DNA of 64,000 bases from Pseudomonadota bacterium. Lineage in GTDB: Bacteria > Pseudomonadota > Gammaproteobacteria > Burkholderiales > Burkholderiaceae_C. The notes beneath the pieces were generated by a model. It was not told the origin of the DNA. It did not search any database and was given only the letters and a program-made list of their open reading frames with translations. Positions 11,604 to 63,334 of this stretch are shown piece after piece. How positions within the stretch are numbered: position 1 is the stretch's first letter; each line of letters starts with the position of its first letter. The stretch lies in contig JAJZVU010000008.1 in the NCBI GenBank assembly GCA_021845505.1, positions 1 through 64,000 of the forward strand. The letters are read 5' to 3'. Both the position numbers and the translations under genes were made by a program.

Positions 11604-12062
11604 ATGGCAACTGCAACCAAGAAGACCGCGGCGAAGAAGGCCCCGGCCAAGAAGGCCGCTCCGGCGAAGAAGGCCGCTGCTGCGAAGAAGGCCCCGGCCA
11701 AGAAGGTCGCCGCCAAGAAGGCCCCGGCGAAGAAGGTCGTCGCCAAGAAGGCCGCGCCGGCCAAGAAGGCGGCGGCGAAGAAGGCCCCGGCCAAGAAGGC
11801 GGCGGCGGCGAAGAAGGCCCCGGCGAAGAAGGTCGTCGCCAAGAAGGCGCCGGCGAAGAAGGCCGTCGCCAAGAAGGCCGCGCCGGCCAAGAAGGCGCCG
11901 GCGAAGAAGGCCCCGGCGAAGAAGGCCCCGGCGAAGAAGGCGGCGGCCAAGAAGCCCGCGGCCAAGAAGCCTGCCCCCGCGCCGAAGGAAGCCGCGCCTG
12001 CGGCGAAGACCGCGCTGAGCCCGGCTGCCGCCTGGCCGTTCCCCACCGGGGAGCGCCCCTGA
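11604..12062 (+). CDS. Histone H1-like Lys/Ala/Pro repeat DNA-binding protein
   Basis: A 152-residue protein built almost entirely of KKAPAKKAA-type units from residue 6 to about 130, with a short C-terminal tail ([12 protein letters not shown]). It has no hydrophobic core and a very high positive charge. This is the composition of bacterial H1-like proteins such as Bordetella BpH1 and Pseudomonas AlgP, which bind and condense DNA non-specifically; that role is inferred. The gene is a string of imperfect GCC-AAG-AAG repeats and is probably length-variable between strains. The start has a good ribosome site (AGGAG), and a strong intrinsic terminator follows 58 bp after the stop. Confidence 0.88.
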
Positions 12063-60157: not shown

Positions 60158-62104
60158 ATGAACGACCGCAACCGCCCCATCGCCCCGCCACCGCCCTGGA
60201 CACGCTTCGGCGCCTGGCGCGACCAGCGCCTGGCCCGCCTGGCGGCGCTGGCCGGCTGGCTGGCCGACAGCACCCTCGATCCCTCGCTGTGGCAGGAGGC
60301 GCTGGCCGAACTCGAGCGCCGGCTGCAACGCGACCAGGTGCAGCTGGCCTTTGTCGCCGAACTCTCGCGCGGCAAGTCCGAGCTGATCAACGCGCTGCTG
60401 TTCGGCGCCAGCGGCCAGCGCGTGCTGCCCGCGGGGGTCGGGCGCACGACCATGTGCCCGCTGGAAATCGCCTACGACCCGGCGCAGCCCTGCGCGCTGC
60501 GGCTGCTGCCGATCGACACCCGCGCCGAGTCGCGGCTGCTCAGCGACTGGAAGGCGCGGCCCCACGAATGGCAGCAGCACGCCTTCGCGCCCGACGACAC
60601 GGTGGCGATGAGCCGCGCGTTGCAGCGGCTGTGCGACACCCAGCGCGTGCCGCTGGCGCGGGCGCGCGAACTCGGCTTCTACCTGGAAGAGGAACAGCCG
60701 CCGGCGATCGTGGCCGCCGACGGCCTGGTGGAGATTCCGTGCTGGCGCCACGGCCTGCTGAACATCGAGCATCCGCTGCTCGCGCAAGGGGTCAGCGTGC
60801 TCGACACCCCGGGGCTCAACGCCCTGGGCGCCGAACCCGAGCTGACGCTGTCGCTGATCCCGTCGGCCGCAGCGGTGGTGTTCCTGCTGGCCGCCGACGC
60901 CGGGGTCACGCGCAGCGACCTGCAGCTGTGGAGCGAGCACATCGGCGCGGCGGGGCGCGAGCGCAGCTTCGTCGTGCTGAACAAGATCGACACCCTGTGG
61001 GACCCGCTGCGCAGCGGCGACGAGGTGCAGTCGCAGATCCGCAGGCAATGCGAATCGGTGGCCAAGGTGCTGCAGGTCGCGCCGTCGCGGGTGTTCGCCC
61101 TCAGCGCCCACAAGGGGCTGCTCGCGCGCATCCATGGCGACGAGACCCTGCTGCAGCGCTCGGGGCTGCCGCAGCTGGAGACCGCGCTCGGCGACTGCGC
61201 CGACCGCGAACGCCGCGACTGGCTGGAGGGCAGCTGGCGCGCCACGCTGCTCGACACCCGCCAGCGGCTGGAGCGCGACATCGACTCGCGGGTGCGCCAG
61301 GCCGACGAACAGCGGATGGAGCTGCAGAACCTGCGCGGCAAGAGCAAGCACGCGGTGGCGGCGCTGCTGCAGCGGGTGAACGCCGAGCGCCACGACATCG
61401 ACGCCGCGCTCGGCATGGTGCAGGCGGTGCAGTCGGTCAATTCCCGGCAGATGGCCCGGGTGGCCGAGCTGCTCGACGCCGGCACGGCCCTCAAGCGCCT
61501 GGAAAGCCTGCGCCTGCAGCTGCGCTCGGCGCTGCTCAAGACCGGCCTGCGCGCTGCGCTGGCCGATGCCTGCGACGAACTCGGGCTGAGCATCAACCGC
61601 GCCGAGGCGGTGCTCGAGGAGAACCACTCGATGCTGGCCGGCGCGTGTTCCCGGCTCAACCAGGAATTCGCGTTCTCGGTGCCCGGCCCGAAGGAGCTGC
61701 GGCTCGACGGAGCGCGCCTGGACCTCGAGTCGATGCGCGCCGACTACCTGCGCTTCGCCGGCGCGGTGCAGTGGCTGCGGCTGCAAAGCCGCGCCTATGT
61801 CGACCGCGTGCTGCTGTCGGCCCAGCAGCGCCTGCGGGACATCCAGGATCGCGCGGTCGCCGACTCCCAGCACTGGAACCGCGCGGTGCTGGCCAGCATG
61901 CAGGCGCAGGCGCGCGAGCGCAAGCGCTCGCTGCACCGCCGGCTGAGCAACCTGCAGCAGGTGGCTCAGGCCGACGGCGAGCTCAGCCAGCGCATCGACC
62001 AGTTGAGCGAGCGTGCCGACCAGTTGCGCGACCTGCGCCAGCAACTGGCCAACCGGTTCGACCTGGCCCTTCCCGGAGTCGAGGCGCTGCCGGCCGCGGC
62101 ATGA
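60158..62104 (+). CDS. Dynamin-like large GTPase
   Basis: A 648-residue protein. The P-loop AELSRGKS (67-74) has Ala where Gly is usual; switch I TT lies at 97-98, G3 is DTPG (216-219) and G4 is NKID (275-278). The C-terminal half is long and helical (about 360-640) with coiled-coil stretches. This is the domain layout of bacterial dynamin-family proteins, which remodel or bridge membranes; the cellular role here is unknown. No transmembrane segment is obvious. The stop TGA overlaps the ATG of the first 27-codon mini-ORF (ATGA at 62101-62104). Position between mutM and mutY suggests one operon. Confidence 0.85.
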   Translation: MNDRNRPIAPPPPWTRFGAWRDQRLARLAALAGWLADSTLDPSLWQEALAELERRLQRDQVQLAFVAELSRGKSELINALLFGASGQRVLPAGVGRTTMCPLEIAYDPAQPCALRLLPIDTRAESRLLSDWKARPHEWQQHAFAPDDTVAMSRALQRLCDTQRVPLARARELGFYLEEEQPPAIVAADGLVEIPCWRHGLLNIEHPLLAQGVSVLDTPGLNALGAEPELTLSLIPSAAAVVFLLAADAGVTRSDLQLWSEHIGAAGRERSFVVLNKIDTLWDPLRSGDEVQSQIRRQCESVAKVLQVAPSRVFALSAHKGLLARIHGDETLLQRSGLPQLETALGDCADRERRDWLEGSWRATLLDTRQRLERDIDSRVRQADEQRMELQNLRGKSKHAVAALLQRVNAERHDIDAALGMVQAVQSVNSRQMARVAELLDAGTALKRLESLRLQLRSALLKTGLRAALADACDELGLSINRAEAVLEENHSMLAGACSRLNQEFAFSVPGPKELRLDGARLDLESMRADYLRFAGAVQWLRLQSRAYVDRVLLSAQQRLRDIQDRAVADSQHWNRAVLASMQAQARERKRSLHRRLSNLQQVAQADGELSQRIDQLSERADQLRDLRQQLANRFDLALPGVEALPAAA

Positions 62105-62184
62105 ACCCGCAGCACGGCCGCCCGAAGGCGGGTTCACCCCCCTCGGGGGGGCCGGCGCGCAGCGCCGAAGGGGGGCGCCGATGA
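62101..62184 (+). CDS. 27-residue mini-ORF, unit 1 of the relay
   Basis: Encodes MNPQHGRPKAGSPPSGG followed by PARSAEGGRR. The ATG overlaps the GTPase stop and the TGA overlaps the next ATG (ATGA at 62181-62184). The peptide is Gly/Pro/Ser-rich without recognisable fold. Whether the peptide matters or only the act of translation (coupling) is open. No family is assigned. Confidence 0.45.
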   Translation: MNPQHGRPKAGSPPSGGPARSAEGGRR

Positions 62185-62260
62185 ACCCGCCGCACGGCCG
62201 CCCGAAGGCGGGTTCACCCCCCTCGGGGGGGCAGGCGCGCAGCGCCGAAGGGGGGCTCAC
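62101..62260 (+). repeat. Two tandem 80-bp units between the GTPase gene and mutY
   Basis: Two units, 62101-62180 and 62181-62260, differ at only a few positions, and the first 12 bp of a third coincide with the mutY start (62261). Each unit carries hairpin-prone blocks (CCGCCcgaaGGCGG, CCCCCCtcGGGGGG and GCGCGCAGCGC), a purine run AAGGGGGG that can act as a Shine-Dalgarno, and a complete mini-ORF. The period of 80 equals the 84-nt ORF minus the 4-nt ATGA overlap. Confidence 0.93.
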
Positions 62261-62264
62261 ATGA
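62181..62264 (+). CDS. 27-residue mini-ORF, unit 2 of the relay
   Basis: Encodes MNPPHGRPKAGSPPSGG followed by QARSAEGGLT. It differs from unit 1 at four residues. The TGA overlaps the mutY ATG (ATGA at 62261-62264), and AAGGGGGG lies 7 nt before that ATG. Translation of this unit would place a terminating ribosome on the mutY start. Confidence 0.45.
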   Translation: MNPPHGRPKAGSPPSGGQARSAEGGLT

Positions 62265-63334
62265 ACCCGCCGTCGGGCGGGATCGACCCGGCCAGCTTCG
62301 CGCCGCGGCTTGTCGCCTGGCAGCGCGCCTGCGGGCGCCACGACCTGCCGTGGCAGCGCAGCCGCGACCCGTACCGCGTCTGGGTCTCGGAGATCATGCT
62401 GCAGCAGACCCGGGTGGACACGGTGCTGCGCTACTTCGAGCCCTTCGTGCGCCGTTTCCCCGGGGTGCGCGAACTGGCCGCCGCCGATCTCGACCAGGTG
62501 CTGGCGCAGTGGAGCGGCCTGGGCTACTACCGCCGCGCCCGCAACCTGCACGCCGGCGCGCGCCAGGTCTGCGAAATCCACGGCGGCGAGCTGCCGCGCT
62601 CGCGCGCCGAACTCGAGACCATCCGCGGCATCGGCCGCTCGACCGCCGCGGCGATCGCGGTGTTCTGCTTCGACCGCCCCGAGGCCATCCTCGACGCCAA
62701 TGTGCAGCGGGTGCTCGGTCGCGCCTTCGGGCTGCCGCGGCCGGCCACCGCGGCGGCCCGCCGCGACATGTGGCGGCTGGCCGAGCAACTGCTGCCGCGG
62801 CAGGACCTGGCGGCCTACACCCAGGGCCTGATGGACCTCGGCGCCACGGTGTGCAAGCCCGCCCAGCCCGAGTGCCTGGTGTGCCCGTTTGCCGCCGACT
62901 GCCCGCGCGAGCTGGCGCCGCCAGCCGCGTCGCCGGCGCGCCGCCGGGCGCCGCGCCGCAGCCTCACCCGGGTGCTGCTGTGGGCGCGCAGCGGGCCGGC
63001 GCAGGCGCCGCGCATCTGGCTGCAGCGCCGCGCCGGCCACGGCATCTGGCCCGGACTGTGGTGCCTGCCCGAGCACGACGACCAGGCCGGGGCGCTGGCG
63101 CTGGCGGGCGAGCTCGGCGAGCTGCTGCGGCAGCGGGAACTGCCGGCGGTGGTGCATCAGCTGACCCACCTCGAACTGCGGCTGCACCCGCTGCAGGTGG
63201 TGCTGCGTCCACGTCACCGGGTGACCGACGGCGCGCTCGACGGCGGCTGGTTCGCGCTCGACGAGGCCTTGCGCCTGGGCCTGCCGGCACCGGTGCGCAA
63301 GCTGCTGACGGCCGCCCGGGCGGCCGGCGACTGA
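62261..63334 (+). CDS. mutY: Adenine DNA glycosylase MutY
   Basis: A 357-residue enzyme that removes adenine mispaired with 8-oxoguanine. Catalytic Glu is in WVSEIMLQQTRV; the helix-hairpin-helix is LETIRGIGRSTAAAI; the catalytic Asp is in ILDANVQRVLGR (DANV rather than the common DGNV). The 4Fe-4S cluster loop CKPAQPECLVCPFAADC is complete, and a C-terminal Nudix-like recognition domain follows. Its first residues MNPPSGG derive from the repeat boundary. Confidence 0.96.
   Translation: MNPPSGGIDPASFAPRLVAWQRACGRHDLPWQRSRDPYRVWVSEIMLQQTRVDTVLRYFEPFVRRFPGVRELAAADLDQVLAQWSGLGYYRRARNLHAGARQVCEIHGGELPRSRAELETIRGIGRSTAAAIAVFCFDRPEAILDANVQRVLGRAFGLPRPATAAARRDMWRLAEQLLPRQDLAAYTQGLMDLGATVCKPAQPECLVCPFAADCPRELAPPAASPARRRAPRRSLTRVLLWARSGPAQAPRIWLQRRAGHGIWPGLWCLPEHDDQAGALALAGELGELLRQRELPAVVHQLTHLELRLHPLQVVLRPRHRVTDGALDGGWFALDEALRLGLPAPVRKLLTAARAAGD

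Follow-up and report, generated by a model that had tools for sequence, protein, structure and literature searches.

How can two genes whose stop and start codons overlap by four nucleotides (nt) accept an insertion of some 80 nt between them without being uncoupled in translation? This question is raised by the junction between a dynamin-like GTPase gene and mutY in the window, that is, the whole 64,000-nt stretch of DNA analysed here (contig JAJZVU010000008.1 of assembly GCA_021845505.1, from a Pseudomonadota bacterium of the Burkholderiaceae_C), where positions 62101-62260 are occupied by two tandem 80-nt units with a mutual identity of 94%. Each unit carries an 84-nt open reading frame (ORF) made of ATG, 26 codons and TGA, and all three junctions, namely GTPase/unit 1, unit 1/unit 2 and unit 2/mutY, are 4-nt ATGA overlaps. 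These units are probably the local, twice-repeated copy of a repeat dispersed in the Burkholderiales, which, inserted in an ATGA overlap, would relay translation to the next gene. As to the repeat as a whole, we lean towards a mobile coupling cassette that would enter 4-nt overlaps, duplicate them and bridge them with a mini-cistron, hairpins and a Shine-Dalgarno (SD) sequence, thus spreading through operons without uncoupling them, with tandem amplification and with selection acting on the frame phase and not on the peptide. The idea that coupling may be kept in this way is well supported by the comparison of copies.

Tandem units and the proposed relay

The initial annotation, made from the letters of the window, had described tandem 80-bp mini-cistrons with ATGA at three junctions, and this description is borne out over 62101-62264; Tandem Repeats Finder assigns the unit pair a period of 80, 2.2 copies and a score of 311. 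The associated arithmetic (an 84-nt ORF, a 4-nt overlap and a unit length of 80, which is 2 mod 3) is also right. An SD-like run had been attributed to each unit: AAGGGGGG is present in both, but it is located at the 3' end of the unit, 5 nt before the next ATG, and hence serves the next start and not that of the unit itself, the first mini-ORF receiving no SD from the element. Similar peptides had been supposed in other Burkholderiales; the unit peptides of the window match no Pfam or NCBIfam family, and Rfam gave no match at E<=1 for 61900-62500.

According to the proposed mechanism, the GTPase and mutY genes would ancestrally have shared a 4-nt ATGA overlap of stop and start, the repeat would have entered it with an ATGA remaining on either side, and a tandem duplication of the unit would have followed; the copy at mutY may have arisen as did the one between gatC and gatA described below. 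A ribosome that ends the upstream gene would start again at the ATG that overlaps the stop, pass through the hairpins while reading the mini-ORF and initiate once more on the next gene, whereby an insertion that would otherwise weaken or abolish termination-reinitiation would be tolerated. The frame would be kept by selection against the loss of coupling or against out-of-frame overlap, and the peptide itself would be of no importance.

Conservation of the reading frame

For copies of the repeat across genomes, the ORF was followed from the codon overlapping the upstream stop, with restart allowed only at an NTGA overlap. Five of the 80 co-directional loci (L201, L298, L364, L395 and L414) have no upstream stop near the array, which leaves 75 testable loci. 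An unbroken chain of mini-ORFs reaches the downstream gene in 62 of these, always arriving at ATGA or GTGA; two of the intact chains start at CTG and seven at GTG. The remaining 13 loci comprise nine that are fused in frame, two that run out of frame and two that stop without restart. When 0-2 random bases were added per unit, the number of relays fell to a mean of 24.1 (standard deviation, s.d., 4.0), with a maximum of 36 in 1000 runs, compared with the 62 observed.

The spacing of units shows the same dependence on phase. Among the 43 internal spacings of the co-directional loci, 18 are 2 mod 3, 25 are 0 mod 3 and none is 1 mod 3, and the next unit has RTGA after all 18 spacings of 2 mod 3 and is devoid of it after 21 of the 25 of 0 mod 3 (Fisher 1.4e-8, a value that treats units as independent, which they are not). 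Spacings of 0 mod 3 correspond to units of 75, 78 and 81 nt, across which the ORF runs on in frame; where RTGA has been lost, the ORF can thus stay in frame and end at the last RTGA, as in an array of 4 x 75 + 77 nt in genome G136. Spacings of 76 and 85 are also found, once each, if all loci are considered, those at contig ends or in other contexts included. The last unit measures 74, 77, 80, 83, 86, 89, 104 or 113 nt, all 2 mod 3, in 57 of 63 cases (77 nt in 35 of them), and 78, 79 or 93 nt in the other six. Units may also become joined into longer ORFs, the longest of 381 nt, or become part of protein N-termini; at locus L229 (C37:11852-11993), two units form an in-frame N-terminal extension of the downstream gene. 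The pattern of chains and spacings is, we infer, the one that selection on the reading frame would leave.

The distance from the first NTGA to the gene start was also considered as a phase test and discarded as the wrong statistic, given that chains of at least two units shift phase repeatedly; the chain test was used instead. Over 67 loci (eight of the 75, with no RTG start in range, were left out of the distance and accessibility analyses), this distance was 2, 0 and 1 mod 3 in 44, 12 and 11 loci, with 20, 10 and 8 distinct distances, respectively.

A second family of the order has a related element in reverse orientation; there, the next gene is reached through one or three mini-ORFs of 81 nt in four of ten loci (L447, L448, L455 and L457), and these mini-ORFs end in TGACATG, TGATGA or TGAGATGA. 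No mini-ORF leading to the next gene was found by script in the other six loci, and no strong SD was seen by eye in those with mini-ORFs. A similar solution seems to exist, judging from these sequences, in this second family.

Insertion sites, copy number and gene context

A clean insertion site is provided by the gatC-gatA pair, whose genes were identified by Pfam (GatC and Amidase). In the 26 loci of the genus, the bare GAATGA overlap is found without element in 19, five could not be read by script (G032, G125, G123, G144 and G130), and the element is present in G141 with one unit and in G136 with five, flanked by ATGA copies; these counts exclude one chance loop match inside gatC. At this one locus, filled and empty sites differ by the unit plus a duplicated ATGA, at most ATGAGC (4-6 nt). 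Both target duplication and empty sites in relatives, which serve to recognise miniature inverted-repeat transposable elements (MITEs), are found at gatC-gatA, and the variation in copy number anticipated by the initial annotation is seen there. Some other orthologous arrays also differ in unit number, their flanks having been compared by eye.

The dynamin-like GTPase gene adjoins mutY in many relatives, and in 12 of 29 other loci of the family this adjacency is found together with an ATGA overlap at the GTPase stop (L037, L039 and L055 not being properly read). Units are present at mutY only in the genome of the window (G000) and in G130, among 27 loci. Additionally, five GTPase-mutY junctions without a recognisable loop (L240, L242, L243, L244 and L251, in G136, G139, G131, G132 and G143) contain ORFs of 78, 45, 72, 72 and 72 nt, respectively, which extend from GCATGA to RTGA in the mutY frame. 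They are possibly decayed units that have kept the relay, or native sequence.

Gene context was assessed by means of a codon model, for which the window served as training sequence and which was applied without score cut-off both here and in the chain test. The set included 122 loci, of which 120 are distinct (L391 has no recognisable loop and one is a duplicate) and some are mutually orthologous; L301, at a contig end, and repeat listings of the same arrays were left out. Both flanks were called in 96 loci, which comprise 80 with both genes co-directional with the unit, ten convergent, four with both genes opposite and two divergent, and the corresponding figures with codon scores >=0.1 on both sides are 72, 7, 3 and 1 (n=83). 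Copies elsewhere had been expected to lie between co-directional genes and to carry ATGA at each end; ATGA-armed copies mostly do lie there, with RTGA on either side. The upstream gene ends at a TGA in or adjoining the first arm in 57 of the 75 testable loci. ATGA-armed copies lie in conserved gene pairs such as gatC-gatA, and one is placed directly ahead of trpA.

Relatives of the element that lack the ATGA arm behave differently. Ten such loci of the family with both flanks called include five convergent, four opposite and one co-directional, and a subfamily of the window's own genome with the loop GGCCGCCCCAAG is convergent at five of the seven places with both flanks called. Since these relatives sit in convergent gaps, it is the ATGA-armed type that is in register with stop and start codons. 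The initial annotation had named an equal presence of copies in convergent gaps as a sign against its proposal: its rule holds for the ATGA-armed type, but related copies without these arms do occupy such gaps. The GGCCGCCCCAAG-loop subfamily is found on contigs C77, C63, C65, C46, C79, C2, C9, C48 and C6, either as single copies or in arrays with a period of 81-95 nt (161 once). At L195, a convergent pair, the stop of the reverse gene seems by eye to be the TCA that ends a second complete H hairpin, and the palindrome would thus supply a stop to both genes.

The downstream start and hairpin H

The SD-like run ahead of the right-hand start forms a duplex of -9.9 kcal/mol on average (n=63), compared with -2.6 for 2000 random 17-mers of the window; 0.75% of these 17-mers are as strong as the median SD duplex.

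Hairpin H is better documented by covariation over 48 aligned units than by the folding of single units. Six of the ten pairs of stem H have changed on both sides, a number reached in 12 of 500 shuffles, and there are 43 cells changed on both sides against 8.5 in shuffles (0/500); sliding the stem partner abolishes the signal. That the units fold into hairpins, as initially proposed, is supported by this covariation and by unit 2, whose + strand fold is more stable than shuffles (z -2.56), but not by unit 1, which shows no added stability over shuffles (z -0.74). The stop and start codons sit in an arm of H, as is the case in unit 1, and the arms differ from locus to locus but mostly agree inside one array.

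Form and distribution of the dispersed family

The general form of the unit consists of an arm, (R)TGANCGC.., the loop GCACGGCCGCYCCGAAG, the complementary arm, a C-run and a G-run, GCGCGCAGCGC, another G-run and a few nucleotides before the next RTG, with a length of mostly 74-80 nt across the family. In the 3.70-Mb genome of the window, BLAST with unit 2 found ten places at E<1e-10, two being the window's own and the others belonging to arrays on contigs C28, C5 and C37; another 42 of the listed places match less strongly and are in part due to chance, 40 of 116 candidates having been scored. A strict loop pattern, which makes no demand on the arms, is present, within the genus, in 8 of 28 genomes and, within the family, in 22 of 399 genomes (15 of 141 genera), and the reversed pattern, used as a built-in control, gave no match in the pattern scans. 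In an order-level sample of 399 genomes, a related pattern was found in G000 and in four genomes of one other family. A covariance model built from the 48 units was applied to a selection of 20 genomes, including 18 in which the pattern had been found, with at most 150 candidates scored per genome; it matched all 20, with 1 to 67 matches each among the candidates scored. The pattern-negative G136 and G128 gave 22 and 1 such matches, which indicates that the loop pattern undercounts.

Copies are also carried by Variovorax plasmid records, although plasmid matches are weak; by eye, the mini-ORF is kept from GCATGA to GTGA at L466 and fused in frame at L467, both loci belonging to Variovorax paradoxus 2u118. 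With one query, weak plasmid matches included three Streptomyces clavuligerus records (77.8% over 76% of the unit). A phage vehicle was considered, and there was no match in the phage collection. The genomes are drafts, some with 81-82% completeness, and several arrays lie at contig ends. In the window's own genome, contigs are broken inside arrays at the end of C16, both ends of C65 and the start of C46, so that draft unit numbers may be too low.

Features of the locus and other repeats of the window

Table 1. Coordinates of the features at the GTPase-mutY junction, as positions of the window.
Feature	Position	Strand	Basis and remarks
Upstream gene, dynamin-like GTPase	60158..62104	+	ORF; Dynamin_N E 1.1e-12; TGA 62102-62104 overlaps ATG 62101
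Unit 1 (80 nt)	62101..62180	+	Repeat comparison
Mini-ORF 1	62101..62184	+	27 codons + TGA; start overlaps GTPase stop, stop overlaps start of mini-ORF 2
Hairpin H of unit 1	62102..62136	+	Arms 62102-62110 and 62128-62136, loop with CACGGCCGCCCGAAG; covariation
C/G region of unit 1	62137..62175	+	C-run 62137-62142, G-run 62145-62151, GCGCGCAGCGC, second G-run; sequence, consensus fold
SD-like AAGGGGGG of unit 1	62168..62175	+	5 nt ahead of ATG 62181; read from sequence
Unit 2 (80 nt)	62181..62260	+	Repeat comparison
Mini-ORF 2	62181..62264	+	Stop overlaps mutY start
Hairpin H of unit 2	62182..62216	+	Arms 62182-62191 and 62207-62216; folding, covariation
SD-like AAGGGGGG of unit 2	62248..62255	+	5 nt ahead of mutY ATG 62261; duplex -10.6 kcal/mol
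Right-hand arm copy ATGAACCCGCCG	62261..62272	+	Makes up the mutY start; G130 carries GTGATCCCGCGT at the same place
Downstream gene mutY (A/G-specific adenine glycosylase)	62261..63334	+	ORF; HhH-GPD and NUDIX_4

Two further tandem repeats are found in the window. The one at 11617-11969 has a period of 15/30 nt and reads as a lysine/alanine-rich sequence of the kind found in histone H1-like proteins, and the one at 20-246 consists of 5.3 copies of a 43-bp repeat.

Weighing of the explanations

Several points weigh against a relay of translation as the function of the element. Synthetic operons that stay coupled across 73 nt, and across hundreds of nt, are cited in sections of Huber 2023 (PMC10666635), so the relay may not be needed, and mutY would likewise be expressed if its translation began independently at the SD of the element. 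The chain fails in 4 of the 75 loci, the upstream stop lies outside the first arm, 22 to 124 nt before the loop, in 18 of 75, and 13 of the 96 called contexts have one side scoring below 0.1. Shared descent of unit length inflates the locus counts, an effect that is reduced but not removed by taking one locus per length signature (33 relays in 45 signatures, against 14.1 in the null, s.d. 2.9, maximum 23). The covariance model was built on ATGA arms and leans towards them, only the listed part of a larger number of matches having been fetched, and the choice of downstream starts favoured a following A, so that the RTGA found at 61 of 63 is partly due to construction. Unmasking of the SD by a ribosome on the mini-ORF is not supported, as computed accessibility changes little, from 0.25 to 0.35, when the mini-ORF is held open (n=66). 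The related arrays in convergent gaps indicate that the superfamily does not need coding. These non-ATGA convergent subfamilies, together with in-frame-fusing units of other lengths, limit the terms 'always' and 'self-propagating' of the initial annotation. The gain or loss of a unit, said always to preserve coupling, is compatible with the 62 intact chains, but only units of 2 mod 3 with RTGA have this property. As regards self-propagation, the dispersal and the one clean insertion with its duplication stand, but the sole mover sought (PF01797) is absent from 8/8 pattern-positive genomes of the genus.

It is possible, if doubtful, that the element is instead a portable ribosome-binding site, which provides a strong SD and a start from which the next gene is translated independently, the mini-ORF being tolerated and the frame kept against out-of-frame overlap. 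The strength of the SD-like run ahead of the downstream start, the AGGAGGG present in many units of G120, G136 and G141, and the tolerance of in-frame fusions (9/75) would all fit; yet a chain of NTGA hand-overs, which 62/75 loci possess, would be superfluous for independent starts, and the reverse-orientation element leads by mini-ORF to the next gene in 4/10 loci where inspection by eye showed no strong SD. The phase data also bear on the idea of a selfish MITE-like repeat of fixed length, in which ATGA duplication and a founder length of 2 mod 3 arose by chance and the relay is an unselected, untranslated by-product. We consider this unlikely: ATGA at both ends does follow from the duplication itself and many copies share 77 nt (35/63 last units), but eight different last-unit lengths are all 2 mod 3 (57/63), internal spacings are never 1 mod 3, and relays exceed expectation even when counted by length signature (33 against 14).

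That the element acts as a transcriptional or mRNA-stability hairpin, either a terminator or similar to repetitive extragenic palindromic (REP) sequences, located after stop codons and with an incidental coding phase, appears very unlikely, since it would leave the conservation of phase unexplained. Covariation of hairpin H and the frequent location of copies without ATGA arms in convergent gaps are in line with it, but ATGA-armed copies lie inside conserved pairs (gatC-gatA) and directly before trpA, and no T-run is visible by eye. A functional small protein or leader peptide encoded by the mini-ORF is hardly credible: similar peptides of 26-27 residues recur, but they change in length and sequence along with the hairpin, units are joined into longer ORFs (as much as 381 nt) or into N-termini, and the peptides of the window have no Pfam or NCBIfam match.

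Significance and comparison with known systems

Dozens of gene junctions carry the repeat, and most of them keep a frame that could bring a ribosome across. If the relay operates as proposed, it would represent a route by which repeats enter operons without polar effects, a natural comparison for gauging the strength of selection on coupling, an origin of small ORFs and of extended N-termini, possibly misplaced by gene callers, and possibly a ready-made part for bicistronic constructs. Searches of an open-access library turned up no description of a repeat providing a stop codon, a mini-cistron, an SD and a start codon together and in phase.

The element is classed here with the small dispersed palindromic repeats. 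It shares with REP sequences and bacterial interspersed mosaic elements (BIMEs), as far as sections of Di Nocera 2013 (PMC3733652) on the GTAG and CGTC superfamilies describe them, the condition of short dispersed palindromes, mostly found where neighbouring genes are co-directional or convergent; according to the same source, the flanking ORF often obtains a TAG stop codon from a GTAG REP. In contrast to these, it brings together stop, mini-ORF, SD and start with a conserved frame, and its consensus has no terminal GTAG/CGTC, although some units of G120, G127 and G136 end in ..GTCGTCC before RTGA. It is not filed as REP because the Y1 transposase PF01797, the only mover looked for, was found in none of the eight pattern-positive genomes of the genus, which speaks against an origin from REP-associated tyrosine transposases (RAYTs); this domain is present in 10 of the 20 other genomes, G136 and G128, positive with the covariance model, being among those of the 20 without it.

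The small bacterial MITEs (ERIC/RU-1, NEMIS and RUP) are similar in that, according to parts of Delihas 2007 (PMC2229807, PMC2759123), they measure ~100-200 nt, are non-autonomous, form hairpins and duplicate their target, and some of them are open and fused in frame to genes. The present element differs in that the duplication is the stop/start overlap itself, in its tandem arrays and in showing only internal inverted repeats, and no source transposon was found, PF01797 being the sole autonomous partner looked for. Rickettsia palindromic elements (sections of PMC2229807) are likewise palindromic repeats tolerated by translation, although they sit in frame inside genes, whereas the element described here lies between genes, could keep gene-to-gene coupling and is fused in frame only in a minority of cases (9/75, against 62 relays).

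Finally, a functional parallel concerns termination-reinitiation at 4-nt overlaps, for which ATGA overlaps with an SD are presented as a coupling signal in sections of Huber 2019 (PMC6728339) and Huber 2023 (PMC10666635), the SD often mattering for the process according to the former. Gene pairs of this kind are marked by a stop/start overlap of 4 or 1 nt, and such overlaps are found at all three junctions at the mutY locus and in 62 of the 75 loci. In the native pairs discussed in the latter source, an intergenic distance of ~20 nt nearly abolishes termination-reinitiation, and a repeat of 74-80 nt placed in such an overlap should accordingly weaken or break coupling. Compared with the pairs treated in these sections, a dispersed repeat here doubles the overlap and a mini-cistron spans the gap, and a mini-cistron that overlaps at both ends need not weaken coupling.

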